Below, in pieces: positions 16,204-57,527 of a stretch of 64,000 bases of DNA. The notes beneath the pieces were generated by a model. That model was not told where the DNA came from. It worked only from the letters and a program-made list of their open reading frames with translations, and did not search any database. The DNA is from Stropharia rugosoannulata (taxonomy: Eukaryota > Basidiomycota > Agaricomycetes > Agaricales > Strophariaceae). Position numbers and translations under genes: made by a program. Positions within the stretch are counted from its first letter, which is position 1. Every line of letters begins with the position of its first letter. Where the stretch lies: assembly GCA_028532985.1 (NCBI GenBank), contig JANCIK010000003.1:3978001-4042000 (forward strand), written 5' to 3'.

Positions 16204-19200
16204 ATGGCGCGACTGAGATGCACAGTACCAGGGTGCCCGAAAACCTTTCGAACACAGAGTGGTCGCACGTATCATGTGCGCCTCATGCACCAGAACTTCA
16301 ACCTTGTCGCCCCCGAAGATTTGGCCTTCCGTAATTTTTGGGGTGGCGGTGAGGATGACGGTGTCGGGGACAATGGGAGGGATGAGCCTGATATCGAGGA
16401 AGAAGTTCGAGTTCGGCATCATCCCTACCTGACTGGTCAGTACTTTACCCTGATGTCTGATATCTCATTGGGCCGCTTAAGTGCATCATTTTAGCTGTAC
16501 CTTGCAATATTACTGGTCAACCTCTGCCAGAAAATGCACCACCCCCGCCCTATGACATCCAGGAGGACTGGGAACCTTTTGAGGGCGAACAGCAGTTTCG
16601 CCTGGCTGATTTTCTGTTTAGGCAGGAGGAGATGTCGGCAGGTAACATCAACGAACTCATGGACATCTGGGCGGTGAATACTGAGACGGCAGAAGGTCCG
16701 TTCTCGTCGAGTCAGGACATGTATGACATGATCGACAGTATCAAGCATGGGGATGTTCCCTGGCAAGGATTCTCTGCTGGTTTTTCTGGAGATATTCACG
16801 CAAACGATCTGTCATGGAAATCAGCTCAATATAGCGTGTGCTTCCGTGATCCATGCCAGGCCATGGTGAATACCTTGAAAAACACCGATTTCCACGGCCA
16901 GTTTGACTACAGTGCATATGTGAAGCTGAACAAGAAAGGCAAGCGACAGTGGAATGAAGTGATGTCAGGGAACTATGCATGGCGGACTTCAGTAAGTTCG
17001 TCTCTCTTTTGCGATTTGTCCTGCATACTCAATTCCATCCATGAAGACCAAGATATATGAAGATGATCCTTTGACAGCGGGAGCAATGCTCTGTCCGCTT
17101 ATACTGGGAAGTGACAAGACTACAGTGTCCGTCATGACAGGCAATGTAGAGTATCACCCACTCTATATCACCCCGGCCAATGTACATAACAGTATTCGGC
17201 GCGCTCATCGGGGTGCTGTCATACCTATAGGCTTTCTGGCTATACCGAAAAGTGAGTCCTCAATGAGGTATTGCATTTGCTCCGCCAACATTATAGTAGA
17301 TTTGCGGCAAGATGACAATGATGCTGCCTTCCGAAAATTCAAGCGGCAGCTATATCACGCCTCAATAGCCATGATTCTGTCATCCCTCAAGCCTGCTATG
17401 ACTACGCCAGTTGTTCTCTGTTGCCCGGACGGTCATTTTCGGCGTGTGATTTTTGATCTTGCAGCCTACATTGCGGACTATCCGGAACAGGTTTATCTGG
17501 CAGGCATAGTTAATGGCTGGTGCCCTAAGTACGTGCAATTCTTCAGATGGTGCCCGGATTAGCTGACTCGTACTTAAACTCGTTAAGATGTACCAGCATA
17601 CCCGCTCATTTGGACTGTCCTTCGGATCGACAATCACATCGACATACTGAAGAACTGATGAAAATCATACCCTCCAAAACTTTATGGGACGAGTATGGCA
17701 TCGATGATGATATTACTGTACGTGTACATCTATCTTCATGTGGAAGCAGTGTGTTCTAATACCAGAATACTAGCCGTTTACTGTGCATTTTCCTCGTGCT
17801 GACATACATCATATGTTGTCACCGGATCTCCTGCATCAGTTGATTAAAGGGACTTTCAAAGATCATCTCGTGCAGTGGGTTAGTGATTACTTGCATCTCG
17901 TACACTCAAGGGAGCGAGCCTCAGAAATTATGGACGACATAGACCGCCGGTGAGTCATTCTTACCATAATAAATGTAAGATGACTTAATGTGCATAGAAT
18001 TGCAGCTGTTCCGCCGTTTCCAGGTATTCGGCGCTTCCCCCAAGGGCGACGCTTCAAACAATGGACTGGAGATGATTCCAAGGCGTTAATGAAGGTGTAT
18101 CTACCTGCCATTCAAGGCTATGTCCCTCCTGAAATCGTGAAGACTTTTGCGTCATTTTTGGAAGCATGTTACATAGCGCGACGGGCCGATATTGATGAAG
18201 ACTCCCTTGGCGAATTACGACGTGCAGTAGCGCGATTCCACCGTGACCGCGAGATATTTAAAGAGCTGGGTGTACGAACTGGATTCTCGTTACCGCGTCA
18301 GCATTCACTATACCACTATGCTGACCTGGTCATGGAGTTTGGTGTACCCGGAGGACTCTGCTCGTCAATCACAGAGTCTAGACATATCACAGCTGTTAAG
18401 AAACCGTGGCGCCGATCCAATAGGTACGAAGCATTGGGGCAAATGTTAGTCACACTGCAACGCCTTGACAAGTTAGCTGCCGCACGCGTGGATTTTGTAC
18501 GACGTGGCATGTTACCACCGTCGTATGGGCCTCCTCCCCAACCAATCAGAACAAGAGCCACGAACCGTGGGGATAACAGTGACAACGAGGACGAACAAGA
18601 AGAAGACGAGCCGGTCGATGAGCTTGTGATGGGCAATGTTGCACTGGCACTGAGCCGAGGTGGGTATCAATTCCTGTTTTAATTAACACTATTGACATTG
18701 TCCTTGATTTTGTAGCACGTAATTATCCACGCCTGCTACCTGAGCTCGCCGAACACCTAGAAACCCCTGAACTTGTCGACCACACGAGACGTTTTCTGTA
18801 TGATCAGCTGTATCCCTTTGCTGAACTCTCCTCGGATGACGTGGACATCTCACAATGCCCATATCCTTCCACCAAGTTTTCGGTCTTTCATTCAGCACTC
18901 GCTACCTTCTATGCTCCAAGTGACGACTCTGGAATTCGTGGGATGAAACGCGAAAGGATTCGATGCTCACCCAATTGGCGAAAAGAAGGCCCTCGGCGGG
19001 ATTGTGTTCTCGTGGTTGTGGATGATACCAAGCCTGGCATGAGAGGGCTGAGTGCTGCTCGTGTCAAGCTTTTTTTCTCGTTCCAGCATGATGGTGTCAC
19101 CTACCCGTGCGCCTACGTTGAATGGTTTGAGAATTACGGCCGCTACCCGGAGGCCGAGACAGGAATGTGGAGAGTTCGTCCACAGATGACTAGCACTGGC

Positions 19201-23292: not shown

Positions 23293-24657
23293 TCACTCGT
23301 CGGACTGTGCAAAAAACGGCCCAAGAAGGTCTTGGAGGCGGTCCATTACCTCCGCGTCATCGTCAGCTTCCTCTGCTTCGTCCACATTGTCGTCAATAAC
23401 CTTTCGAACGACTTCAACGGAGTGCGCAAGCGTGTCAACATGGTCAAGTAGTTTCTTGACGCGCTCGCTAAACTTGCGAGGTTTGGTGCAGTCGCGCGCC
23501 ATATGGCCGGATTCACCGCAAGCATAGCAGTTGAAAGGTTTAATTTCTTTGGATGAGGACAGCTTGAGGGGGGCGGGTCTGGTGGGGGGAATGATGGCCG
23601 GGGGCAGGCTTGACGTTGCGGGTGGCGTTGTTACGTCTGGGCGTTTGAAGGGTTGCCAGCGACGGAATTGCTGCTGAGGACGTCGTGCATATGATGTGAT
23701 GTGGTTGTTGTCCGCTGCAGCTTTTGCCTTGCGAGTGCGAAGGAAATTATCGCATTCAAGAATGAGGTCCTTCCAGCCCTCAACTGTGGTCGGAGAGGGT
23801 GTGACGCGGTAGCATTCATCTCGGAGGTCGGGGCGCAAGCCGTCGATGAGGAAGAACAGTGAGGCTTCATCGCCGAAGCGCGATTTGCGGCGGAGGTGCT
23901 CAAACTCAACCAAGAAGAGGCCTGCATTGCGGTCGCCCTGGGCAAGTAGACGCATCTTGCGTTGAGCGTCCTGTCGCTCGTGCGGATTTGCGAATGACGC
24001 GCGTAGGCGTTCTTCAAAGGAGCTCCATGACGAGAAGTGGTAGGACCCTTCTGCAATTTGGTCATAGAGGTCTGTGAGCCAGTCCGACGCATCTCCTTTG
24101 ATCAGAGTAAGAGCATATCGAACCTGCTTTTCGGGTGTGTCAAAATCATCAGGCTGTGCACGGAAGATGTTGACGCAAGCATTCAGGAAGGGTTGCAGTT
24201 TGGCTGAGTCGCCCGTGAACTCATCTGGTTTTGGAAGACGAATCTTGTTACTCGACGAGCGGGCCGCTGGAGGAGCTAATGTAGAGTGCGCATGGACGAG
24301 GGACATGGCGGTCTCAAAAGCGGCAACGAGGCGGGATATCGTAGCAGACTCCGCCGGTGAGCGAGAGCTTCGTCGTCGACAGTGGTGAGAGCACGAGCGA
24401 GAACGCGAACGTGAGGAGTGTGACCGGCGACCTGTACGACGGCGGCTTGTGTCTGTGCGGTCGCGAGGGCTCGACTGGTGTGTGCTTACAGTGGGTGGTG
24501 GTGGAGCCGGCGCGGTTGGAGGGGCAATGTGGGGGGGAGGGTCGCGAGAGCGTTGTACTGCAAATGGTGTGGCCACGATGGGCTGGGAGGGCAAAATAGA
24601 CGTGGGAACCGCAGAAAGAGGGGCGGCCGGAGCGGACGCATCGCGACGTGGAGGCAT
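23293..24657 (-). CDS. Ty3/gypsy-type Gag polyprotein
   Basis: 454 residues from ATG 24657 (MPPRRDASAPAAP). The N-terminal 110 residues are Pro- and Arg/Ser-rich (SRSRSRSCSHHCRRRSSRS). Residues about 150-320 are the retrotransposon Gag capsid fold (LPKPDEFTGDSAKLQPFLN, YALTLIKGDASDWLTDLYD, SFEERLRASFANPHERQDAQ). A single zinc knuckle CYACGESGHMARDC (C-x2-C-x4-H-x4-C) follows near residue 390, then an acidic C-terminus. Gag forms the virus-like particle that packages element RNA. The stop is 190 bp before the 3' LTR and no pol follows. An in-frame TTG at 24708 extends the open frame, but it is not needed as a start. Confidence 0.92.
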   Translation of the reverse strand: MPPRRDASAPAAPLSAVPTSILPSQPIVATPFAVQRSRDPPPHIAPPTAPAPPPPTVSTHQSSPRDRTDTSRRRTGRRSHSSRSRSRSCSHHCRRRSSRSPAESATISRLVAAFETAMSLVHAHSTLAPPAARSSSNKIRLPKPDEFTGDSAKLQPFLNACVNIFRAQPDDFDTPEKQVRYALTLIKGDASDWLTDLYDQIAEGSYHFSSWSSFEERLRASFANPHERQDAQRKMRLLAQGDRNAGLFLVEFEHLRRKSRFGDEASLFFLIDGLRPDLRDECYRVTPSPTTVEGWKDLILECDNFLRTRKAKAAADNNHITSYARRPQQQFRRWQPFKRPDVTTPPATSSLPPAIIPPTRPAPLKLSSSKEIKPFNCYACGESGHMARDCTKPRKFSERVKKLLDHVDTLAHSVEVVRKVIDDNVDEAEEADDDAEVMDRLQDLLGPFFAQSDE

Positions 24658-25075
24658 CGTGGATGAACAGTAATTAAAGCGAAGAAAAGCTGAGTACGGT
24701 AGTGACAATTAAAAGGGAAAAAGGTCAAATATATGCGTTGTTGAGGGAGGCGAGAGAAACGAGACGTGAGAATTAAGTGGTACGTGCAAAGTTATTGACT
24801 CGGAAAGAGATTAATTAAGTTAAGAAAGTGGAGTGATGCTGCAAGTGAGAAAGGTCAACGAAAAATGTGGATGTATGCGTAAAGTATGCTGCGAGAGGAG
24901 TCGTCTAGAACCGAGAAAGATGCGAGTGAGCGAGAATTTCCGAGATAAGGTCGGTCCAGTTGGCGGAGGAAAGAGGTTCAATAATAAGCCAGCTGCGGAG
25001 ACCTAAAATAATGGTCGAGTCTGTCAGAAGCGATTCGGTGAGTACACGAAGTCGAGTGGGCTGTTCGGGGCGGTC

Positions 25076-42276: not shown

Positions 42277-43600
42277 GCATCTCCCCTCTATGATGTGTTG
42301 CCATTGCTTTCTTTGGATTTATTTTTTCTTCGCTTTTCTCTAGGATTTTGGGTTGTATCAATCGCTTATTCTTTCTGTCTTTCCCTCCCACTTTCTCTCC
42401 CTAGATCTTTCACTTTCTATAACATAGACACATACTTCTTACCCCTGGCAGCTTCGTTATGGCCGGTCCAGTGCTTCCGATCCGTACCCCGCCCCATGTA
42501 TTCTTCATCACCGCACCTCGCATTACCCGACACACGCATACTTATAGAAGTTACTACAATCTGCATTTTCCCCCGTCAATTTCAATTGCTCTATGCAGCC
42601 AATTTTGCTATTATAGGAAAGATCCAAGAAGTAAGGTCACGGCGCGCCCACCCTGCGCCTCGTTTCGCGCCTCGAGGGGGTGATAACCTGCTGTAGACAA
42701 GCTTCAGACGCGCAAGGCCTTGGGAAGTACGGCGCCCGGGTTCGGATAAGTGCCGCCCTCGGAACTTTTCCTGTGCGTAAAGCTGCGTGTTGAAAGAGTT
42801 AGCGTGAGGAGCTAGAGCCTTCCACGGAGCTGTAATTGTGCTTGATTAAATTATGTACGCTTTTGCATATCCTCTAACAAGTGCGAAACATTGTCGGGGC
42901 CGAATATGGATGCCACATCTGATTGCAAGCTGATTGTGTATGCCAGAGGTTAGGACGTAAATGGGAAGGGTCCAACCTCTAACACCTTTGCAGACCCTGG
43001 GGCCTGGGTGAATTATGTAACTTGATAGAATGTGCATATGCTTATTAAAGTACCCTAAAACCCTACTTACACAACGGAAATCAACCTGCATGCCCTGTTC
43101 AATCATGGGCGCCGTGGCCTGGCATCGTGCCACTGACGGTAAGAAGCCGGCGCGGGTGCCGGACTCGGAACTTAACATCCGAATCCCGGAATGGGCGGCC
43201 TCTGATAATGACTTCCTTCGGCGCAACTCTGATGAAGCAAGCACTCTGTACTGCATCTACATGAGCAAGGCGCCAAACAGGGAACTTGACTCTAAAAAGT
43301 AACTTGGCAAGTACTGTGCTCGCTTACACTTACATAAGGATATTATTATTGCTTGATAAGGTCTAATTAATAAAAGGCACGATTCCATAGCAAGTAACAA
43401 TTTATTTACGGTGTTCAGATTGCGGGGTACATACTACAAAGTATTTGGGCATTGTCGGTGCGTCGGCTGCGAGTGGTCCGCGAATGTATTGAAGCCTGAA
43501 GTATTTGATTGCAGCGCTTCTGGAAATTCTACTAGTACTAGTAAGGCTTTAGCAGGTGAGTAGTAGTAATATAGCCAAGTACTAGTAAGCGGGGCTTATG
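42277..43600. other. intergenic
   Basis: No gene recognised. An open frame at 43030-43302 (plus, 90 codons) has no resemblance to known proteins. Confidence 0.45.
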
Positions 43601-44045
43601 GACCATTATAATTTGTCCCACTTATCCAAGCTCTCAAATACAATTTATGGTATCCTGGTTGACGCACGCAAGACTTACATAGGACAATATGGCCGGCCAC
43701 GGCAACCTTATTGGACAGTTGTGTCGGAACCACAAATAAATTATGTAATCAATCAATCAATGCCAGGCCATTAATTCACACTCAGATTAACTCAGTGAGC
43801 ATTGAGTGAAGTTGCGTTGGGTAGTCATATAACTCATTAAACTCATCCTTCGACACTCCTGATCTCTGCGCTTTTACACTCACTCATACATCTGTCCAAG
43901 TTTTTCTCGATAACGATTACAGACGGATATATGATGTAAGGAATGATTCTGGCAGCGTGGTTGTCCGCCTTGCTGAAGTTCCATCCACAGTTAGCCCTGA
44001 GTAAGATTGATTGCAGTTGACAATAGAACACACCTAGATGTTCAA

Positions 44046-44261
44046 CTAATTTGGCTGGAGGTCGCGATTGGGCTCGGCTTGCTTTGACGCAACCTTGAGG
44101 AAGTCTACTGATGATCCTAGCAAAGGACAACGCGTAACTCCATCAGTACATTATATGTACACATTGTCAGACGAAGTACCTCGCTTATACTGAATAGGTT
44201 CTGCGGCCACCAGTCCGATAAATAAGACGGCGAGAGCAAACGAGAGGTTGGTGAACTGCAT
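44046..44261 (-). CDS. small secreted peptide precursor 1 (tandem copy)
   Basis: Exon 1 (44261-44180) encodes 27 residues: signal peptide MQFTNLSFALAVLFIGLVAA, then EPIQYKR. A 63-nt intron (44179-44117) sits in phase 1 after KR. Exon 2 (44116-44046) encodes GSSVDFLKVASKQAEPNRDL plus QPN and stops. The total is 50 residues. The KR at the exon boundary is a Kex2-type site that would release a 23-residue C-terminal peptide in the secretory pathway. Two further copies lie upstream on the same strand with the same layout. No known family was recognised. Nearby UstYa-like genes suggest the peptide may be oxidatively modified (inference). Confidence 0.8.
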
Positions 44262-44325
44262 TTAGGACGTGGGATCGATGGGGACTGACACACAATGAGT
44301 GCTGTCCTTTCCCTTCCACAGCAAC

Positions 44326-44333
44326 TTTATATA
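44326..44333 (-). promoter_or_regulatory. TATA box of precursor 1
   Basis: Minus-strand TATATAAA about 65 bp before the start codon, conserved in position in the other tandem copies. Confidence 0.65.
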
Positions 44334-45219
44334 CGCTAACAGATCTCTCTCACAAAGAATTAATCAGTTCAAGGCTCCGCACAGTCTGAAAGATGTACGT
44401 CCATCTTCGCCGCTCAGTGTCTTCTATGATGCACTCTGTGTGTTCTATTGTTTCGTCCAAGAATAGGCATAGGTCGACACCCCTAATCGGCCCATTCTAA
44501 GAGATTTTGCGAGATCATTTCCATAAACGGGTAGTCGTCAATCAATGATCAATGGTAGCGTCCGTTCATTGGGCACTCAAGTGAAAAAGCATGCAACGGG
44601 AGCAAAACGCAGAAAATAGACATCAGAGTCATCCGATATCCAAGGCAATTAGCGAGGTAATTCTACTATTCATACGCCGCAGTTGATAGCACAGCTCAAA
44701 TCATGGCCGCTATGCAGACGATGCTCGAGCCTGAGTACTTCAAGCTCTCTTGCCGCCAATACTAGTTGGCCAATAGCACAGTATCCGCAGGCCCATTCTT
44801 CGCACACTTATTCAAGCTCTCAGATATGGCATCACGTTTCATTCTTATTGAACTCTAACAAGTTCACTAAGCTGTGTTTACGCTCGCAAGACTTACATAG
44901 GACAATGCGGCCGGGCACGGCAACCTTAGTTAGACGACCAAACGGAGTTGCAAGTTCTGTCGGAGCCTCAAGTCAATGGCTTTTAATTCAAGCTCAGATT
45001 CGCATAGTGAGCATCCAAGTTCAAGGGTATTGCGACATTCCTGATCTCTGCGCTTGTACAGCCGCTCATAAATATGTGTACATCTCTGCTGGATTACGAT
45101 TACAGGCGGATAAATAGTAGAGAATGACTTTAGCAGCGTTGTCCACCCTGCTGAAGTTCCGTTCACAGTCATGAGGCTGAGTTTATAGTTGACAGTAGAA
45201 CACACACCTAGCTATTCAA

Positions 45220-45435
45220 CTAGTTTGGCAGGAGGTCGCGATTAGGCTCGGCTTGCTTTGACGGAAGCCTTTCGAAGTCTACTGATAATCCTAGCAAAGG
45301 ACAAAGCGTAACTCCATTAGTACGTTATATGTACACATTGTCGGACGAAGTACCTCGCTTATACTGAATAGGTTCTGCGGCTACCAGTCCGATAAGTAAG
45401 ATGGCTAGAGCAAACGAGAGATTTGTGAACTTCAT
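45220..45435 (-). CDS. small secreted peptide precursor 2 (tandem copy)
   Basis: Exon 1 (45435-45354) encodes MKFTNLSFALAILLIGLVAA and EPIQYKR. The intron occupies 45353-45291. Exon 2 (45290-45220) encodes GLSVDFERLPSKQAEPNRDL plus LPN. The total is 50 residues with the same phase-1 splice after KR as copies 1 and 3. Substitutions relative to copy 1 fall mainly in the middle of the mature part (FLKVA versus FERLP), while SKQAEPNRDL is unchanged, which points to selection on the C-terminal core. The first exon differs by only a few conservative changes. The function is unknown; see copy 1 for the inferred processing. Confidence 0.8.
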
Positions 45436-45490
45436 TGAAAACGTAGGATGGGGACTGATACAATGACTACCATTCCTCTTTCTACAGCAC

Positions 45491-45499
45491 TTTTATATA
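45491..45499 (-). promoter_or_regulatory. TATA box of precursor 2
   Basis: Minus-strand TATATAAAA about 56 bp before the start codon. Confidence 0.65.
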
Positions 45500-45973
45500 C
45501 GCTAACATTTGACTAACAGATGCAGGATCCGATCCCTCACATTGAAGTATTAAATTTATTCAAGGCTCCGCAGAGCCTGAAAGGTATGCGTCCATATTTG
45601 CCGCTCGATATCTTCTATGATGAACTCTGTATGTTATGTTGTTTCGTCCAAGAATAGGCAACGAATCATCAACTAAATTTGGAGTATGTCGGTTCTCCAA
45701 ATCGGCGCATTCTAAGAGATTTTGTGAGATCCTTTCCATGAACGGATAGTCGTCAGTCGATGATCAATGGTAGCATGCTTTCATTAGATATGATCTCTGC
45801 GCTTATACAGTCACTCATGTATTTGTGTAAATTTCTCTCAACAACGATTACAGGCGGATAAATAATAATTCATGATTTTGGCAGTATTGTTGTCCGCCTT
45901 TCTGAAGTTACGTTCACGGTGAGGCTGCGTAGAGCTGTTTACAGTTTATAATAGAGCACACCTAGATGTTCAA

Positions 45974-46194
45974 CTAGTCTGACTGGAGGTCGCGGTTGGG
46001 CTCGGCTTGCTTCGACGCAACCTTGAGGAAGTATAATGATGATTCTAGCACATTTGGAAAAAGCGGAACCCCATCAGTACGTTACATGTATACACATTGT
46101 CGGACGAAGTACCTCGCTTATGTTGAATAGGCTCTGCGACCACCAGTCCGATGAGCATGATGGCGAGAGCAAACCAGAGATTGGTGAACTGCAT
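45974..46194 (-). CDS. small secreted peptide precursor 3 (tandem copy)
   Basis: Exon 1 (46194-46113) encodes MQFTNLWFALAIMLIGLVVA and EPIQHKR. The intron occupies 46112-46045. Exon 2 (46044-45974) encodes ESSLYFLKVASKQAEPNRDL plus QSD. The total is 50 residues. The residue after KR is Glu instead of Gly because the exon-2 edge reads AA rather than GA. The phase-1 splice position and the stop position are identical to copies 1 and 2. The conserved block is again ASKQAEPNRDL. The unit carries its own TATA box, so the three genes are probably transcribed separately. Confidence 0.8.
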
Positions 46195-46251
46195 TTAGGA
46201 CGTGGGACAGGGACTGATACAATGAACACCATCCTTTCTTTCTACAACAGC

Positions 46252-46260
46252 TTTATATAT
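46252..46260 (-). promoter_or_regulatory. TATA box of precursor 3
   Basis: Minus-strand TATA-like ATATATAAA about 58 bp before the start codon. Confidence 0.6.
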
Positions 46261-46700
46261 GCTAACATATGACTGACAGAGCCAGAACTCCTCACAAAAT
46301 ATGGCCTGTTCAAAACTCTGCAAAGTCTAAAAGGTATACGTCCATCTTCGCCGCTCGATGTCTTCTATGATGCACTCTGTGTGTAGTGTAGTTTCTTCCA
46401 AGAATAGGCAATGTTAATGAACGTTGAACCATGAACAAAATTTGGAGCATTTCAAAAGTCGGCACCCCGAATCGGTCCATATTCTAAGAGATTTTGTGAA
46501 AAGCATGTAACGAGAGCAAAAAGCGGAAAATAGACATCAGATTGATCCGATATCCCAGGCGATTAGCGAAGTAATTCTACTATCCATACGACGCAGTTGA
46601 TAGATCACGGCCGCTATGCAGACGATGTCCGAGCGTGGTAAAACGGTGTGTCTTTACTTGAGCTTGAACTCTCCTGCCGCCAGTAGCACAGTATCCGCAG

Positions 46701-48652
46701 ACCCGATCCAAAGAATGAGACAGACGAGAATAGTGACGCTGGAAGACGCGCCTCATACTTTGAATGTGGAAGTTATTAAAAAAATTCTCATAGCCGGATA
46801 GATATCCAGTTTTGCTCAGTGATCAATTTGCTCCACGCTGCCTTTTAGCTGCCTTCGTAGATGGTGAGACAGAGACATTCCTTCTCAATCGTTTGATGCT
46901 GATGGAAACTCTACGATATCATCGTGAACAATGCTATGACAGGAGAAGGGCCATATTTGAAGGTTGATATTATCCGCAGAAATATGCTTTGGACCAGCAG
47001 TGATGGAGAACGAGCGCTTGGGGTTTCCGAATTCTTTGCACATATTCCCGAGGGCACGAGGAAGTCGCACAATGAAGTCTTGTGAGTAAAACATCTTATA
47101 CCGAGAGCGGCGAATGTTCTGAGTAAGCCAAAAGGTTTGTTGATGAGACAATTGGCCAGCTGGCTGAAAATAATTTGACGTTCTCCACTGTACGTCACAA
47201 TTCTTACTATAATCTCAGTTCACACGCAGCTGGTAGATAATTTCTCTGGCAACAGTACAGAGTAAGCGTGGAAAGGGCTTTGCGTTAGCTATTGTCAAAG
47301 ATATCTGTCATAAGGTACTCCTCATGAGATAATTCTCATAGAGCAGGAATATCGACAATGTTAATCTATTATAGGCGCGGATGGGAGAACAAATTGCGAC
47401 ATCAGCGCTTCAAGCTTCGGCAGCCATCTCTCAAGAGAATGTTTGTCGATCGGGACCTTTTCAACCTTATTAATACTGATGGCAATAATTCTTTAAGGTT
47501 TCCTTCTTTGAGTGTCTGGGACGGCAAGAATATGGGAGCATCGATAGACCCTCCCCACTCGGAGAGTTGACCAGCAATATCAATATGATGGTCTGGGAGC
47601 AGCTAGCCTCGGATTGAACATTCCGACGTGCTCACGCACATATATCATATGGGTTTCACGGAACATGGCGCCGGAAAGCAACTCACATAATGCTATGTCT
47701 TCTACCTGCCAGTGATTCAGCCGACACCCTGCCATAAGCAATTTATGTTCTTTGGGAACGCGTCTTTCAATTTCCCGTTTTTCTTAATGGAGATGGGGTT
47801 GGTACCTCTGCATCGGACTCTGTACATTTTGAAGGTAGACACAATTGTCAAATGGTCGGGACGTCGGTGTGCTGGTATGTTGATATCTGAGGGTCCGAAC
47901 TATGACATAGATCTCCCATATCTTTATAATTATGACACGCTTTTGTATGTAGGTGTTTGGCTGACGGAGTCGCGGCATGCAGACCTGGGTTTGAGCTGGT
48001 TATGGAGTGACAAAAGGAGGTGAAATGCAATGCAATGGTCTGATACCGCCAACCAAACCAATCACATATAGTACGCTATGTGTGTAGCACTACTATCGTA
48101 CTTTTGCCAAACTTTTGCATCAGCGGCCAATCGGCGGCTGGCACTTTATGAGTCTATAAGCACCGCGCGCGCCAGCGCGCCCAATGCGCGCTGATTGCGC
48201 GGCGCGTTACTAACAGTGCCGTGACGCTTCATATTATACTATTTACAAATGCTTTACAACGGGTCCGAACTATGACATAGATGTATTTATTTTTGTGTTA
48301 CTCAAGTCAGTGCTAAAGTAGTAAATGTCAAAAGGTTTAAATGACAACAGCGAGGCAATTTTTGGGAGCTACTAAGAGCGGTAATAAGTGGTACTGTCTA
48401 CAGGAGTATCTTTGTCAGTCGTATGTCCCCGGGTTTATGTTTTTTCAGTCACGTTAAAACATTCGCACAAATAAACACGCGGCTCTATTGGGTCTTCTAT
48501 ATCTGTAATGGATCTTCTGACTGTGGAATAAGTGCAGGTATGACTGAAAAAGGAGCTGCATTTCTGCGTTAAACCACTGTAAAATTAGGATATCACGAAG
48601 TATTCTGACCAAATTATGACGGTTTAGACTCGGTTGTCTTCCTTTCTTGTGT
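46701..48652. other. region with undecipherable ORF remnants
   Basis: Minus-strand stretches near 47640-47400 (HIDIAGQLSEWGGSIDAP and LKEGNLKELLPSVL) and 47150-46890 look protein-like but are broken by stops and frame changes, as in a decayed gene; the family was not identified. A 22-bp direct repeat starting GGGTCCGAAC occurs at 47891 and 48261. A GC-rich patch with GCGCGC strings lies at about 48160-48210. Confidence 0.35.
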
Positions 48653-48866
48653 CTACAGTGTGCTTCTATTTGGTTCAGCTTCACTGGAAGCCGTCATCAG
48701 AAAGGTATTTCCTCCTCTGGGGCTGATAAGTTCTCTTCCTATACACATCGTTATGAAGAGCCAAAATAGGAGGGCAAAACATACCTTTGTTGTCACCGTA
48801 CAGTGGTCTACCAAAGGTAGTAGCCACAGCAGAAAATAAAGCTAGCAAGTTGAGTGTGAAACGCAT
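48653..48866 (-). CDS. small secreted peptide precursor 5 (divergent)
   Basis: Exon 1 (48866-48785) encodes exactly 27 residues, a signal peptide MRFTLNLLALFSAVATTFG then RPLYGDNK, and leaves one base. The intron (48784-48715) starts GTATGT and ends CAGAG. Exon 2 (48714-48653) encodes GGNTFLMTASSEAEPNRSTL and stops. The total is 47 residues. The second exon aligns with the tandem copies (FLxxASxxAEPNR). The dibasic KR is replaced by NKG, so Kex2 cleavage is less certain. An alternative acceptor a few bases upstream gives an unrelated shorter end; the homology decides for the model given. A TATA-like string lies about 55 bp upstream. Confidence 0.68.
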
Positions 48867-48916
48867 TTGTTCCCCTGAGTTCGACCTGAGGTTCAAAGTC
48901 GCGAACGTATACCTGC

Positions 48917-48924
48917 ATATATAT
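48917..48924 (-). promoter_or_regulatory. TATA-like box of precursor 5
   Basis: ATATATAT about 55 bp before the start codon at 48866. Confidence 0.45.
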
Positions 48925-49374
48925 TCAAAACTGCATTGTTGTGGTATATTTCTTAGCTGACCACTCTGACTTGTTGATACTCAATTCGGAACCTTTAATT
49001 CCAGGCGTTGCCACTTCCATGGTGTGAAGTATACGTGTACAGTCTGAGAGAAGATGTTCTATATGGGCCTGTCGCACAACGAACCCTCTGTACGGGCACA
49101 ACGGCTATAGGAAGAATGCTAAAGCTACGCGGTGAAAAACATAGCATGTTTACTGTCTACAAACACTACACAGAAAACCCTGCCCGAGTTGATGTGTTAT
49201 ATCGGACCGTGTCGTAACTTCATGAATGAATATTTGAAGTGGTTACAACAAACGGCAACCCCCATGCCTCTACGACACATATGTGCGAGCGATCACTGAT
49301 ATGCCTACTGAGTCGCATCCACTCGACGTGCGCTCAACTCGCTCCTATCCGGCTCGATTTGGGTAGTTTTTCCT

Positions 49375-49537
49375 TTAATGAATATCCCTGTTGGGCCTTC
49401 CATTTCGAGACGTAAGTACTGTGGGTAATTGAGGTGGTACACAAGCGACGCTAACCTCTTTGAACAAGCGACGGTTGGCCAACAACCATTTGGGTCATAA
49501 TTATAGCCACAGCGATAGTTTGTTTTAAGATGTACAT
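49375..49537 (-). CDS. small secreted peptide precursor 4 (divergent)
   Basis: Exon 1 (49537-49456) again encodes exactly 27 residues plus one base: signal peptide MYILKQTIAVAIIMTQMVVG, then QPSLVQR. The intron occupies 49455-49419 (GT...CCACAG, 37 nt, short). Exon 2 (49418-49375) encodes VLTSRNGRPNRDIH and stops. The total is 41 residues. The shared features are the exon-1 length, the phase-1 splice after a basic residue, and the C-terminal PNRD motif (RPNRDI versus EPNRDL). The junction has a single Arg rather than KR. Sequence similarity outside the motif is low, so homology rests on architecture and position beside the other copies. Confidence 0.6.
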
Positions 49538-49590
49538 GACAAAGGACTGGGAACTTGTTTGATTTTTGGCATTCCAAGGAAAACGATTGC

Positions 49591-49600
49591 ATATATATAC
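49591..49600 (-). promoter_or_regulatory. TATA-like box of precursor 4
   Basis: Minus-strand GTATATATAT about 55-63 bp before the start codon at 49537. Confidence 0.45.
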
Positions 49601-50229
49601 TTCTGTGATAATGTGTACCTTTCTAGGCCGCTTCCTGATATCTCGATCGCTCCCTTTTATATGCAAGACCTGTGGGTGAGATGACATACGAATTTGGCAC
49701 AAGTGGTTCTTTCCACAGCGCCGAGCCCGAGCGCATCATTTCTCGGCGGTTTGGGGACATGTATGCACATTGTGATTGTTCAATCCAAAAAAGTGGCGAG
49801 ACCACTCTGCTAGATGTTCCCCACAAGGTGCAGTGTCAGATTGTACTGTCTCAGCCTCGGGTATAAATAACTATAGAGCGTAGTTTGCTGTACTTCACGG
49901 AAATATGCGGAACATTATAACCATTATTGCCCCCGTTCATCCGGAGCCCCATCAGGCTCAATTCCTTTTTCGGAAATTGTAAGCTCATAACACACTTATC
50001 GTCAAGGTCGAGTCATGCAAAAATGATCTCTCTCCACGTAAATTCTCTCAGAATCAAAGTGCACACATGTAGTGAAACACAAAGTGCGCATGGCTAAGGA
50101 GCATACAATGCTTGTATAATACATGCACATCCGTACTTCTGTGGGCTACGTCCTATCCTCTTGACGGTGACATCTCGCGTACTTCAGTAGTTTTCAGCTA
50201 AGAGTCATAGGTAATCAACGTAAATTTTT
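49601..50229. other. intergenic
   Basis: No continuation of the UstYa-like fragment and no other gene was found. Confidence 0.5.
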
Positions 50230-50279
50230 CTAGCTCAATACTGCACAGCATGTACCAGAGTACTCACAAGATGTCGAAG

Positions 50280-50535
50280 AAACGTAAGCTCCATTGAAGG
50301 GATCTATCCGGCGTAATTGTCCAACATCCATGTCGTTCAATCCTTGCATAATCTTGGTCGATTTTAATGCAAAGTGCATATTGGCGACAGCTAGCCCAAT
50401 ATTTAAGATTGTGACGACAAGTATACACAGGAAGATGCTCTTGCTGACTGTAAAGCGGGATGAGTGACTTGTTACAGTTGTATTATGATGGTCCGCATCG
50501 TCAGCCTGTGAGAGCTTTTGGTATTCGTTAGCCAT
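50280..50535 (-). pseudogene. N-terminal fragment of a UstYa/DUF3328-like protein
   Basis: ATG 50535 opens MANEYQKLSQADDADHH, a short cytoplasmic N-terminus, then one TM segment (SIFLCILVVTILNIGLAVAN) and a stem ending LRRIDPFNGAY, the usual start of UstYa-family proteins. The frame leaves the family after about 84 residues. No exon encoding the catalytic HxxHC motifs was found in the 700 bp downstream on this strand. It is therefore either a truncated copy or a gene whose catalytic exons have been lost. It is divergent from the intact UstYa-like gene starting at 50912. Confidence 0.6.
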
Positions 50536-50911
50536 GGAGGTGAATTCGAGGTACACGCGCTACAGAGAGCGTACTTAAGTTTGAGCGAAAGGTATTTGAC
50601 ACAGTTACTCGGCACTGCGAGCTGTGCTTTTCATATCTGATCACAACACACAGCTACCGTGAATGCCGTGTGCGTATCCTGCGGAATCCGTGCCACTGGA
50701 ACTTTCCGAGCGCGAGTCGGACGGGTGTATCTTTCCGGTGGTGATTCTCGGATGACTCCACGTAATGTAACTCTAGATAAAGATGCCAACTTACATATCC
50801 TCCGAATCGCCGTATCAGCGGAGCGGACACTGCATTGTATAGCTGTGAATGAATCTCCGTACATAAATAATGATTATATCTTTGAAGAACGCCATGGCCT
50901 GATTGTTCACT

Positions 50912-51533
50912 ATGTATCCCAAGGAGACCGTCATTTTTGCTCTTGCTTTAGCTACCTTGCTCATAAACCTGTCCAGTCTACTTATCTGGTTGCATGTACT
51001 AGATAATGATGTCCATTTAAAAAGAGCAGGCAAGCTTTGTTTTAAGAACTCAGGCTAATCATGCTGACGATTTTGTAGACTCCATTGACAGTGTTGCCTC
51101 ATTGGAGCTGCCATGGAACAATTCAGAACAAGTCGCTCTCGAATTCAATAATGTTGGTGGTTTTCACATAACAAACGACGATGATTGGGAGCCGTACTCT
51201 CAACCGAAGATGTTCAAACTTGACGGCCGGAAAGATAGAAATTATATGATCTCGATGCAGCATCAACTCTATTGTCTGAATTATGTGCGCATTGCATACC
51301 TCAGCTACCACACGGAGCGACCAAAACAGGCAGAAGATTTCTACGAGGACGCAGAGAAATGCATCGAACAGCTGCGTCAGTACTTAATGTGCCATTCAGA
51401 CCTTACACTCGAGCCAACAACGCTGCATACGCTACCAGACGGTACCAAGACTCCAGGTACTAAAGGCATAGGTGTCGTGCACCGCTGCAATGCTTGGGAC
51501 AGGCTGGAGTCTACGATTGCGACGCTTACTTAG
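50912..51533 (+). CDS. UstYa-like (DUF3328) protein A with degenerate motifs
   Basis: Exon 1 (50912-51029) encodes MYPKETVIFALALATLLINL and the rest of one TM anchor. It joins exon 2 (51079-51533) through a GC-AG intron (51030-51078, CAG|GCAAGC donor). The total is 190 residues. Exon 2 carries the family blocks: FHITNDDDWEPYSQP, then HQLYCLNYVRIAYLSY where the first HxxHC motif reads HQLYC (His to Tyr), and YEDAEKCIEQLRQYLMCHSD where the second lacks its histidines. UstYa proteins are membrane-anchored oxidases that cyclise or oxidise RiPP peptides in the secretory pathway. Loss of the motif histidines suggests altered or lost catalysis, or a partner role. It lies beside the peptide precursor genes. 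Confidence 0.78.
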
Positions 51534-52095
51534 GAATATCGTGGGTATCCCACATATTCTTGAAAAAATTGTACATCATTATTTTAACAGTTGATTTATT
51601 TATATGGGAGCTCGAAATTCTGTGCATTTAGCAATTATGCTTGAGCTGTATATTTTGGCTGCATTTGGAGACGCACGTAGGCATCAGAAGTTGCGAGTTG
51701 ATTCATGATCGTTGGTTCCATGCACGGGATGTATAGGTAAATTATTAGGCCCGAACAGTTGCACGGTTATCTCGGGTATGTTGTACCATGTAAATCGGGA
51801 CGGCTATCGGAATACATATGCAGAGCTTCCATTCCGCAACTCTACTGCATGTCACATAGCAAAAGGCCATTGGAGAGCCCAGATTTGATCATTTTCCAAT
51901 TTCTATAATGTCGAGCGGTGCAGGCTGTACAACAATGAAACAAGTATGTGAAGAGAGAACTTCAATGACTAGCCGGATCAGAATTTCACTGTATAGCAAT
52001 ATTAAGGAGCTGTCCATGTCATTAGGCGCACACATGTACCAGAGATAAGCACATAAAGGTCTATGCCTAGGTTAACTTATGTCTTCTCCAACACC
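51534..52095. other. intergenic between the two UstYa-like genes
   Basis: Nothing recognised; probably the promoter of the second gene. Confidence 0.5.
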
Positions 52096-52664
52096 ATGAA
52101 GCACGATCTTTACATAACGCTTCCAGTAGTCCTTGCAGCAGCAGCAACAATCCTGGTCAATATCTATGTCCTCTTCCTACAACATACAGCTCTGAAAAGC
52201 GTAGTCGCAAGCCAGCAGCATGACGTGTTGAGTGAGCAACAAATAGTAACTCACAGCGTTCTCACTGAACTGTTAAATTCTCAGGAGACGACCCATATCT
52301 CAATCAGCTCCCTGGTAAATTCGAAACGGTGTCCATGGTCATACAGGAGAACAGCATATTCTCATTAGAGAACGACACTGCCTGGGCTGAAACCATACCC
52401 GCAGACCATGGTTTCGTACGACTGGGTCCTCAAGGTCGTACATTTGGAATTGCGGCGTACCACCAGCTTCATTGCATAAACGCTGTACGCTTCTCCTACA
52501 GCGTTGCTAGAGATGGTCTTGTCACGGATCCAGAAGTACTGCGGGCCAAAATGGGACACGACAACCACTGCTTTCAATTCATCCGGCAGAGCATTCTCTG
52601 TAAAGCCGATGATGCGCTCGTCCCAGTCAGCATTTCTCCGAGGAATAGATCCATACCAGAATAG
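52096..52664 (+). CDS. UstYa-like (DUF3328) protein B, both HxxHC motifs present
   Basis: Exons 52096-52231 and 52285-52664 (53-nt intron, GTGAGC donor) give 171 residues. One N-terminal TM anchor (LYITLPVVLAAAATILVNIY) is followed by a stem and DDPYLNQLPGKFETVSMVIQ. The catalytic region then reads FGIAAYHQLHCINAVRFSYS (first motif HQLHC) and MGHDNHCFQFIRQSILCKAD (second motif HDNHC). The paired HxxHC motifs are the hallmark of UstYa-type oxidases. By analogy with dikaritin pathways it would act on a Kex2-released peptide in the Golgi or ER lumen. It is oriented in tandem with protein A, and the five precursor genes lie 2.5-8 kb to the left. Confidence 0.85.
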
Positions 52665-53953: not shown

Positions 53954-55282
53954 CTTGCAGTAGGTGACGTACATTTTTCCGGTGAATTTACCAACCTGCC
54001 TTTGGAGCAACTCCGTGTCATATATAACGAACTCCCCATTACCGGCTACAACCATGCGTGGAAACTATGCCTTCTCTTAGTACGCCTGAGTCAATATTCC
54101 TGGGGACAGTTTTGGAGGGGGTTTTCTATGGTAATGTCCCGACAACTTACGTTGAAATTGATTTCTAACTGAACTGAAGGGGTCTATTGCGTTATATTCG
54201 CACTTTTTTTGAAGATTGAGCGGAAGTCGACCGGGCGAAGTCGGCTCACCTATCCCCTCGCCCTCTTGTTCGTGCTATGTACAGCGTTCATGGTCCTCGA
54301 CTTCACGCAGCAGTTCATTACTATCGTGAGTTAGCCGGCCGGCCCTTCTTGAACTGGCTAATACGACTTTGAACATGTAGTTCAGATCCACTGAACCTGG
54401 CGGTGGAAATATAGTCGCGAACATAAACATCACCACCTCCATGATCTACACCTTCGTTGACTTCATCGCTCAATGCGTCTTGGTACGTGCCTGGACCTTT
54501 CTCAGGAATTTGAGACCACACGTATTCATCCGCTGTAAAAGATCTATCGATGCTGGATAATGTGGGATCGCAAACCATTATTCATCGTTGTACCGTCGAT
54601 ATTGGCCCTGGCATCGTTCAGTAAGTCAACAAGCATATTGTATTGGAAGTTGTTATCTAACCGAGCTTCAGCCACTTGCCTTACTTTGACAATCGAGCTT
54701 ATTATCGTTGGTCGCGTAAAGACGCCCCCTACCTGGTTTTTCCCTTTGGGAGCTGCATCCTTCAGTATATCTGCTCTGGTCAACTCGGTCATTGCTGGAC
54801 TTCTGATTCTCAAGCTCGTATTGACGCACTATCAACTCAAAAGGGAAGATACACTGGGCCAGACGCACAATCTCCTCCCATTGATAGCCATCCTTATTGA
54901 GTCGGGAACATTTACTTTCGTTGCACAAGTCATATGGACCGTGCTCTTCGGCCTCCAGAACACGGGTTTCAACTCTGTTAACGGACTTATAACGATGGTT
55001 TATGTAAGAGCTTCCTCTTCACAAGTATATAATTTCAACTGATCTTTATCTGGGAAGGGCATTACACCGACGATTATCATTGTCCGCGTCACAATGGGAA
55101 CGTCGTTCGGAGAGAAAACTAGGCACGCTGCGAGCTCACTCAAGTTCAACGACATGAAGAGCTATCCGGCAACGTCAGTTACGGCTGCAAGTATGGGGAA
55201 CATGAGCAACAAGACATTCAACGAAATGTCAACGGGGAAAGTCATGGATGACTACGAGAGTGTTAGACCTGTTTCAGCGTAA
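53954..55282 (+). CDS. multi-pass membrane protein, Agaricomycete family of unknown function
   Basis: Exons join in phase over most of the length. Pieces in order are LPLEQLRVIYNELPITGYNH, then AWKLCLLL (TM), VYCVIFALFLKIERKS (TM), LALLFVLCTAFMVLDFTQQF (TM), IYTFVDFIAQCVL (TM), IYRCWIMWDRKPLFIVVPSI (TM), ALVNSVIAGLLILKLVLTHY (TM), LLPLIAILIESGTFTFVAQV (TM), NSVNGLITMVYG, then a polar tail FGEKTRHAASSLKF ending VRPVSA. This is a very common seven-TM-like family in Agaricomycetes with no assigned function. The stop is the TAA at 55280-55282. The first two junctions are uncertain and no in-frame ATG was found, so the start is approximate and a 5' exon may be missing. Confidence 0.75.
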
Positions 55283-55638: not shown

Positions 55639-57527
55639 TTATAGCACACCTTCACTATTATCATTCTGCTCTCCAATTTCCTCATCCCTTGGCACCGAGG
55701 TTTCCTCGATCACCGCGTCGCGCTGTGCGTCTCCCCAGTAATCGTCCACACACGTAGGTTGCAACGCCGGTTTCTCGACCCATGCATTCCTGCGAATGTT
55801 CAGAACTAGGCGGGAGCCCTATTAGATTGGTTTAAACTGTCAGAACCGTACTGGCCCAGGGAACGGAATGAGTCGGACGCACCGATAGTGAGTAGAGGAG
55901 GAGGAACCAGCTTCAGGTTTATTCATGCGTTATGTGAGTCTTGAGAATATGACATGGCGGCGAGAAGGTGTCACTCACGGATGCCACCAGTCATTGAAGT
56001 AGCCCAGGTTTGACGCGAGGTCGCTTACCATCGTAAAGAACGTAGCCACTACCAATACAATTAGCAGTTTTAATACACACGAGGAAGAAATTGCGTACGG
56101 AAAATGAGAAAGAAATAGAGAGATCCGTCGCGTAGCATTGAGAGCTCCAGGCTCATGAACTTGTACTCGGGCTTCCTCTTGTCTAGCGTGAAGAGGTGCC
56201 GGAACACGTGGAGAAGCTTGAAGACTGTTAGGAGGAAAAGTATTGCTTTAGGGGTTATAGTGAGACGCCCGGTAAGAAATCGCTCAGTATTATATCACGA
56301 GGTGGGGATAGACTCACAGCTTCCAAGGAGAGCAGGCACCCTTGTGAAGTTGAAGCACTCCGGTAAACACGAATACCAAATGGTAGAAAGTGCGAAGACC
56401 CACCAAGCAAGCAGCTCAAATCTATAAAGCGTTTTGTCCTTCTTTGTCAAGGTAAAGCACCCGGGGCCATGTATGAGCGACCGTCCCTGGTGCTGGCCAA
56501 TCTCGACGTGAACGGTGGTTATAATTTCGCACTGTTTAATGGTTTTTATGAGACACTATGCCACCTCGTGGGCGACAGAATACGTGCGTACGTACCGCAA
56601 GTTCAACTGTACTCCGTTTGTTGGTCAGTGTCAAGCTAAAAAGGATGGTAAGGATAAGAGAATGCACCTGCCCAAACTATCCAGACGGCGATGATGACTA
56701 GAAAAATTATATTCAGTCAACTGCTAATAGCATGAAGAAAATGTTAATATTGTACCTTTTCGTGACTCCCGGTACAAGGCGCAAACTCGGAGGGTGAACA
56801 GCGCGCTTACGAGGGGCAAGATGCAAATGACACCTCCACTGTACAAGACATTATTTTGAGTGAAATCATGGCGTAGTATGGGTAAGATACATACAAGCCG
56901 TGATACCACGTATACGACGCACATCTATTCCTGTCAGGAAGGGATTCACGTTAAAACGACTCCAGGGAAACTCACAACTTGACAGAGTGATTATTAGCAT
57001 GACTGCTATACTTCATAGAGAACTGTCACCACTCACATCGTGGATGTCCTTAGCCAGTGCACGAACTGCAATTGAGGTGTACATCAGATGCGTCGTACAC
57101 CATACCAAAGGCCCAGCGTATGTAGAGCTCACCATGGAATAGTATACTATGACGCTCAGTGGAGGGATGGTGTATGACCAGGGAAGGAAAGCTTACCAGA
57201 GATGAAGTAGTGGGTAATAGCGCGTTATTATGTATAGGATCTTCGGGATGGACCACGCAGCGCTGGGATAATGCCATGCGTCAGTTCGTATCGTAGCTTT
57301 TTGTCGCTAGTAGAACATGAAGCCCGACTTGCCTCCAAACGAGCTTAACTTCGTCGGCAAACAATAGGGATATGTCGTATGCGAGGATCGTTATCACGGA
57401 CACTACAAATAGCGGGAATGATTAAAGCAAAACTGTCAGAGACAAGCAATGGTTCAAAGACTGGACACGCACCAGAGATGTAGTTCAACACCTTCAAAGG
57501 TTCAGATTGCAGAATTGCGTGAGCCAT
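55639..57527 (-). CDS. DUF6533 multi-pass membrane protein
   Basis: ATG 57527 begins MAHAILQSEPLKVLNYIS and splices to VSVITILAYDISLLFADEVK, then LVW-S, then AAWSIPKILYIITRYYPLL, which together are the DUF6533 N-terminal domain. Later segments are ICILPLVSALFTLRVCALYR (TM), VIIAVWIVWA (TM), VVFTGVLQLHK, FMSLELSMLRDGSLYFFL and the C-terminal GSRLVLNIRRNAWVEKP, ending GVL at the TAA at 55639-55641. The second intron (57332-57263) has a GC donor (AG|GCAAGT) and a standard AG. A few middle junctions (57.1-56.9 kb) are not resolved. This is a membrane protein of unknown function, convergent with the preceding gene. Confidence 0.75.

Follow-up and report, generated by a model that had tools for sequence, protein, structure and literature searches.

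Among the described fungal systems closest to the one considered here are the dikaritins (ustiloxin, phomopsin and asperipin-2a), whose secreted ribosomal precursors are encoded beside a pair of UstYa-family (DUF3328) proteins and whose known products have tyrosine in the core. We have analysed a 64,000-nucleotide stretch of the Stropharia rugosoannulata genome (48 Mb, 20 contigs), C3:3978001-4042000, hereafter the window, in which a pair of UstYa genes, A and B, adjoins a family of tiny two-exon genes predicted to encode secreted peptides. The likeness to dikaritins lies in this arrangement and in the presence of both HxxHC motifs in B. However, dikaritin precursors are Kex2-processed repeat proteins, whereas here each precursor carries a single core without repeats, marked by an EPxR signature and preceded by a KR site in only 7 of 14 cases, none of the cores contains tyrosine, and the second UstYa protein, A, is conserved with altered motifs. 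Because the precursor family, the UstYa enzymes and a membrane protein occur together at three related places in the genome, they suggest a fungal system for modified peptides of a kind not yet described. On sequence grounds, there is about an even chance that three paralogous loci, one of which lies in the window, make up a single-core system resembling those for ribosomally synthesized and post-translationally modified peptides.

A guide to the enzymes is CctR, a DUF3328 protein described as a dimeric binuclear copper oxidase in which two coppers are held by the motif histidines and cysteines, and mutation of either kind of residue abolishes activity (PMC12435403). B resembles such CctR-type proteins in its HQLHC...HDNHC motifs and its single N-terminal membrane-spanning stretch, but CctR is reported to work as a homodimer, on a peptide of non-ribosomal origin (PMC12435403), whereas two unlike UstYa proteins are encoded together here, one of them motif-altered. 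In mushrooms, Kex2-processed repeat proteins (KEPs) are likewise secreted precursors, some with KR sites, from which the EPxR precursors differ by their single core. A survey of KEPs, in which 6.1% of the repeat precursors from basidiomycetes had DUF3328 alongside, put forward the view that cyclisation 'might hardly occur in Basidiomycota' (PMC7329392), although single-core precursors would have been invisible to it because repeat-based surveys need repeats. Pleurotus ostreatus is reported to have 16 UstYa genes, six of them developmentally expressed (PMC8893723), and many mushroom UstYa genes have no known substrate. The missing substrates could be single-core precursors, whose genes, encoding 50-60 residues and interrupted by a short intron, are easily overlooked by gene finders. 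The MSDIN (amatoxin) peptides and the borosins are, like the candidates described here, ribosomal peptides of basidiomycetes. MSDIN peptides are encoded one core per gene by gene families, their precursors have no signal peptide and they use POPB; to our knowledge, UstYa proteins belong to neither MSDIN nor borosin systems. Borosin precursors, for their part, carry a methyltransferase domain (PMC7878506). No description of single-core UstYa-linked precursors was found in the titles and abstract openings of the open-licence literature, among the matches listed.

The precursors share the signature F-x(5-8)-EPxR. They were detected by a scan for an ATG followed by a hydrophobic start, a first exon of 70-100 nucleotides ending in phase 1, an intron of 32-95 nucleotides (introns are typically of about 40-70 nucleotides) and a second exon containing [FY]x(4-11)EPxR. 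Fourteen start sites were found in 306,009 bases, five in the window (p1-p5), eight on contig C1 at 528.7-543.7 kb (q1-q8) and one on contig C7 (r1); before C7 and the C1 flanks were added the number was 13. Chance would account for few of them, as 40 Markov-resampled sets of the same DNA averaged 0.25 sites and never exceeded two, while five other orders of E, P and R gave 0, 1, 0, 0 and 0 sites and seven altered forms of the motif 0, 0, 0, 0, 0, 2 and 0. Phase, signal sequence and EPxR were required by the scan and are not independent evidence, but the residue at the [FY] position is F in all 14 although Y was allowed, and its distance from E is exactly eight in 11 (5, 5 and 6 in the others) although anything from 4 to 11 would have passed. 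The residue after R is invariably D, S, A or T, and a TATAWA element lies within 120 nucleotides upstream of 13 of the 14 starts, compared with 285 of 3601 ATGs of the same DNA (7.9%). First exons are of 82 nucleotides in eight members, and the models are 50-61 residues long in all but q1, which at 137 residues with a low-complexity tail has a doubtful end. Ratios of non-synonymous (dN) to synonymous (dS) substitution were 0.42-0.69 in four comparisons between precursors.

An initial annotation of the window had proposed PNR/PNRD as the shared motif. This proposal has to be abandoned, since PNR shows no enrichment (35 occurrences within 12 codons of a stop in the DNA examined for it, against 30-39 for permuted triplets; 35 genome-wide matches to an AEPNR DNA pattern, against 31 for the reversed control) and the other loci show EPxR; PNR is a local form. 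A looser EP.R scan also yielded rows at L009, L013, L028, L030 and window positions 14150 and 63149, which are without the F spacing and were taken as chance.

How closely is this family tied to UstYa genes? PF11807 (UstYa) has 22 matches genome-wide, grouped into 12 loci including the window, several of which hold two genes, and the same scan found no family member in 191,007 bases around ten other UstYa loci. The earlier idea of one core per gene, multiplied by duplication beside UstYa, is thus strengthened, the linkage recurring at three paralogous loci. C3 and C1 share B, A and a short protein, C, and a multi-pass membrane protein, D, is found at C3, C1 and C7. Gene order at C1 is D, B and A leftward, then C and precursors rightward, of which the window is the mirror image; six more precursors lie past D at C1. 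At C7, r1 and D are retained but A and B survive only as scraps. Window A and B are 66% and 78% identical to their C1 counterparts and match the C7 scraps at 54% and 57%, whereas other UstYa genes match them at 22-41%. The whole segment was copied together, and the precursors remained beside UstYa genes of this type. Further genome searches with p1, q6 and r1 revealed no convincing member outside the three loci (q6 returned three weak rows, E 0.2-0.3), but they mostly missed known members across loci as well, r1 finding only p5, and are weak evidence of absence elsewhere.

This linkage bears on whether the peptides are modified at all. They might be left unmodified or merely trimmed, serving in signalling or as antimicrobials, while the UstYa neighbours act on something else. 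Linear, minimally modified Kex2-derived mushroom peptides have been described (PMC9769878), full-length A exists only at C3 and C1, and C7 keeps a precursor and D beside decayed A and B. Such an explanation nevertheless seems unlikely in view of precursors at all three A/B-type loci and at none of the ten other UstYa loci scanned, and of the rigid F-x8-EPxR spacing. The p, q and r peptides are probably, if not confidently, substrates of the adjacent UstYa proteins.

The five precursor genes of the window lie on the minus strand. p1 (44046..44261; exons 44261..44180 and 44116..44046; TATA box at -72) and p3 (45974..46194; exons 46194..46113 and 46044..45974; TATA box at -65) each encode 50 residues with the core FLKVASKQAEPNR, while p2 (45220..45435; exons 45435..45354 and 45290..45220; TATA box at -64), also of 50 residues, has the core FERLPSKQAEPNR. 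These three genes sit in tandem repeats that take in flanking DNA, and their mutual similarity alone is therefore little proof of anything. Their introns carry branch-site-like TACTGAT or TACTAAT sequences, and that of p3 is five nucleotides longer with the frame unchanged. p4 (48653..48866; exons 48866..48785 and 48738..48653; TATA box at -57) encodes 55 residues with the core FLMTASSEAEPNR, and in the two-exon models the first exons of p1-p4 are all of 82 nucleotides with a phase-1 end. p5 had been placed at 49375-49537, with a 37-nucleotide intron and a PNRD ending, which is the wrong frame because its C7 homologue r1, identical at 36 of 57 residues and without PNRD, keeps the other one (...EPDRSEL / ...EPNRSNL). 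The corrected gene, 49305..49537 (exons 49537..49456 and 49396..49305; TATA box at -62), has a 59-nucleotide intron, a second exon reading GPTGIFIKGKTTQIEPDRSELSARRVDATQ, the core FIKGKTTQIEPDR and 57 residues. Five two-exon precursor genes had been claimed, and p1-p4 are modelled as they were then, but the products are 50-57 rather than 41-50 residues long. A Pfam search with p1, p4 and the superseded p5 model gave no match.

Both UstYa genes lie on the plus strand. A (50912..51533; exons 50912..51029 and 51079..51533, with a GC-AG intron) encodes 190 residues, and B (52096..52664; exons 52096..52231 and 52285..52664) encodes 171 up to an in-frame TAG. They match PF11807 at E 5.4e-16 (59.5 bits) and 6.4e-15 (56.0 bits), respectively, well above its curated cut-off of 25 bits, which confirms what had been supposed of them; a PDB sequence search with B gave no match. 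The HxxHC(x)nHxxHC pattern by which catalytic DUF3328 enzymes are recognized is present in B, whose HQLHC and HDNHC motifs are intact, and not in A, where the motifs read HQLYC/DAEKC in the window and QQLYC/DAQVC at C1, so that one of four motif histidines is in register in the former and none in the latter. A alone should be inactive because CctR needs these histidines and cysteines, but its sequence, like that of B (dN 0.15, dS 1.56), shows constraint (dN 0.35; synonymous sites are saturated), while the precursors evolve more quickly than either enzyme. By analogy with CctR, the simplest reading is that A is a copper-free partner of B. An altered first motif (HQLRC or HQLKC) is found in other UstYa genes as well (L019 8984, L022 8518 and L026 9115), and at C1:1103-1108 kb an altered-motif gene again lies 3-4 kb from a canonical one, suggesting that canonical/altered pairs may be general in this genome. 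The retention at two loci of a pair with one altered copper motif makes a heteromeric enzyme a directly testable idea.

A mechanism can be outlined from these elements. Each small gene would be transcribed to give one precursor, whose architecture consists of a signal peptide, a short variable leader, one core F-x(5-8)-E-P-x-R, then D, S, A or T and a short tail. The signal peptide suggests that the precursor enters the secretory pathway, where Kex2 may trim the KR-bearing precursors, and a second cut could fall at the R that precedes a small or acidic residue (this is a guess). B, with its complete binuclear-copper motif, would then oxidise the core, whereas A, most of whose copper histidines are lost, would most likely be the heterodimer partner that gives structure or holds the substrate. 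Because F and EPxR are both fixed while the residues between them vary, the enzyme may grip or link these two elements, as in the closure of a ring whose contents vary. Diversity would arise by gene duplication and rapid change of the precursors, and D may export or sense the product, which is the least certain step. The whole chain as stated (precursor, Kex2, oxidation by A/B, ring and D) is tentative and somewhat doubtful.

Several observations weigh against the proposed single-core system. KR is found at or just before the exon junction, ahead of the core, in seven of the 14 precursors, five others having a single R at that place and two neither, so that release by Kex2, as first suggested, suits half of the family while the other half is without a dibasic site before the core. 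No core has Y between F and R, unlike the dikaritins. Judged as dikaritin precursors, the family members thus have the signal peptide (a hydrophobic, signal-sequence-like N-terminus is seen in 14/14, but was demanded by the scan) without the flanking dibasic sites or the core tyrosine, and with one core per gene in p1-p5, q1-q8 and r1 they do not have the several near-identical cores by which KEPs are defined. No copy of C was found at C7, where A and B are only scraps, and A, B and C have no TATA box like that of the precursors and hence show no sign of shared promoter control. The scan covered the window, flanks and UstYa loci, and unlinked members may exist elsewhere. Searches of a protein collection of uncertain fungal coverage yielded no relative with p1 (E 10), with an alignment of 12 precursors (E 10) or with UstYa A (E 0.001), and say little either way.

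The in-frame TAG of window B is a further point of this kind, for the C1 paralogue runs 37 residues further and the window copy may be failing. Together with the A/B scraps at C7, this stop could mean that the window is a decaying copy without present function and that only the C1 locus works. We consider this fairly unlikely, since p1-p5, A, C and D are all open in the window, five precursors persist there with their TATA boxes, and the copper motifs of B precede the stop.

Two further genes accompany the precursors and UstYa pair. The first exon of gene C (50268..50535, minus strand) encodes one membrane-spanning stretch and LRRIDPFxGxYV, with no catalytic part. It had been described as an N-terminal UstYa fragment, but it has a C1 counterpart (L018:781-1035) that is 42% identical over 86 residues, with the same GTGAGT phase-1 donor and dN 0.49 against dS 2.96, which marks a conserved gene; it has no match in Pfam. 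From the initial annotation there remain, then, the five two-exon precursors and the two UstYa genes, while the motif, the frame of p5 and the view that gene C is no more than a piece of a UstYa gene have fallen.

Gene D (about 54067..55282, plus strand) has five exons and encodes a 332-residue multi-pass membrane protein. Its homologues are 87% identical at C7 and 68% at C1, and splice sites agree at all three loci. A genome search with one exon (E 0.001) gave three matches, all at these loci, but such a search misses distant kin, because a weaker relative at C1 near C was not among its matches. D has no match in Pfam or, by sequence, in PDB, and a single NCBIfam row at 12.5 bits against a cut-off of 500; an AlphaFold model of a single exon without alignment was uninformative (predicted local distance difference test score, pLDDT, 40). 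DUF6533 and DUF6534, families of membrane proteins that mark Agaricomycetes, have 35 and 64 matches in the genome by profile search, which, like the short introns, is in keeping with a mushroom-forming basidiomycete, and another multi-pass membrane gene 2 kb past D, at window 57332-57409 (minus strand), matches DUF6533.

The position of D invites another explanation, in which the three loci are signalling modules whose secreted peptide, oxidised or not, is perceived by D as its membrane receptor. D was found by the search made only at these loci, in the same position, its hydropathy fits about seven helices (about seven hydrophobic stretches, although a crude count gave 8-10 overlapping windows), and at C7 it persists with r1 despite the decay of A and B. 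All the same, we regard a receptor as quite improbable: D could equally well be a transporter, its presence at all three loci would follow from segmental duplication by itself, many other DUF6533/DUF6534 membrane genes exist in the genome, D has no Pfam or PDB relative and its structure prediction was poor. An equally improbable elaboration would be a self-contained peptide-signalling module duplicated onto three chromosomes, combining fast-evolving secreted F-x8-EPxR peptides, a heteromeric pair of one canonical and one motif-less UstYa copper oxidase by which they are oxidised, and D as a locus-specific orphan seven-helix receptor; it would belong to a broader class, because other UstYa loci carry their own unrelated families of tandem tiny secreted peptides.

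Small peptide genes that lie in tandem close to one for a multi-pass membrane protein also recall lipopeptide mating pheromones, and q2 (L017 1655, plus strand) ends in CAIV, a CaaX-like tail that is the sole case among the 14. Lipopeptide pheromones have no signal sequence, whereas all 14 genes have a signal-like start (as the scan required) and 13 lack a CaaX end; pheromones were accordingly rejected as an explanation of the family and are extremely improbable. Among the open reading frames near the locus sent to Pfam, in a partial search, no tyrosinase, methyltransferase or peptidase domain was seen, a further difference from the dikaritins.

Under the preferred reading of modified single-core peptides, the remaining UstYa loci are of interest as points of comparison. 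Repeat precursors lie near UstYa genes at C8:1870115 (plus strand; L029 3116), with seven KR sites and ALGAFGKR-type repeats, and at C12:671725 (plus strand; L012 726), with five KR sites and EYKR-type repeats, and are useful internal positive controls. Since such KEP precursors adjoin two other UstYa loci, UstYa-linked precursors would seem to be a habit of this genome. The repeat detector flagged these two and three L019 frames, which were set aside (a long open frame, arginine-rich stretches), and none at the EPxR loci. At C1:1105236, 1111999 and 1113203 (plus strand; L020 237, 7000 and 8204), three tiny genes for secreted products, each of two exons and with QPALRL or QPAERL, lie in tandem near two UstYa genes and constitute, by their sequences, a second, unrelated family of putative precursors. 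Two tandem tiny secreted genes with SKRQDGPA occur near two UstYa genes at C9:887987 and 887301 (minus strand; L024 5988 and 5302), and all five of these QPALRL/QPAERL and SKRQDGPA genes have TATA boxes. By inspection, with no chance comparison, a candidate precursor of some type is present at seven of 13 UstYa loci (the 12 and the C7 remnant). What is gained is a search rule, which is to look near UstYa genes for tiny genes of two exons with a phase-1 intron, an upstream TATA box and a secreted product, and 14 candidate peptides for mass detection.

Other features of these loci can be noted in passing. Three tandem histidine-rich secreted proteins of about 150 residues are encoded less than 8 kb from a C12 UstYa gene (L011 1673, about 4120 and 6212, plus strand), and an inverted pair of 271 nucleotides with 97% identity (L009 6297-7131) lies near the UstYa gene at C12:1900 kb. 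The window itself also contains a piece of a Plavaka transposase (16461-17057, plus strand) and a retrotransposon gag gene (23296-24708, minus strand).

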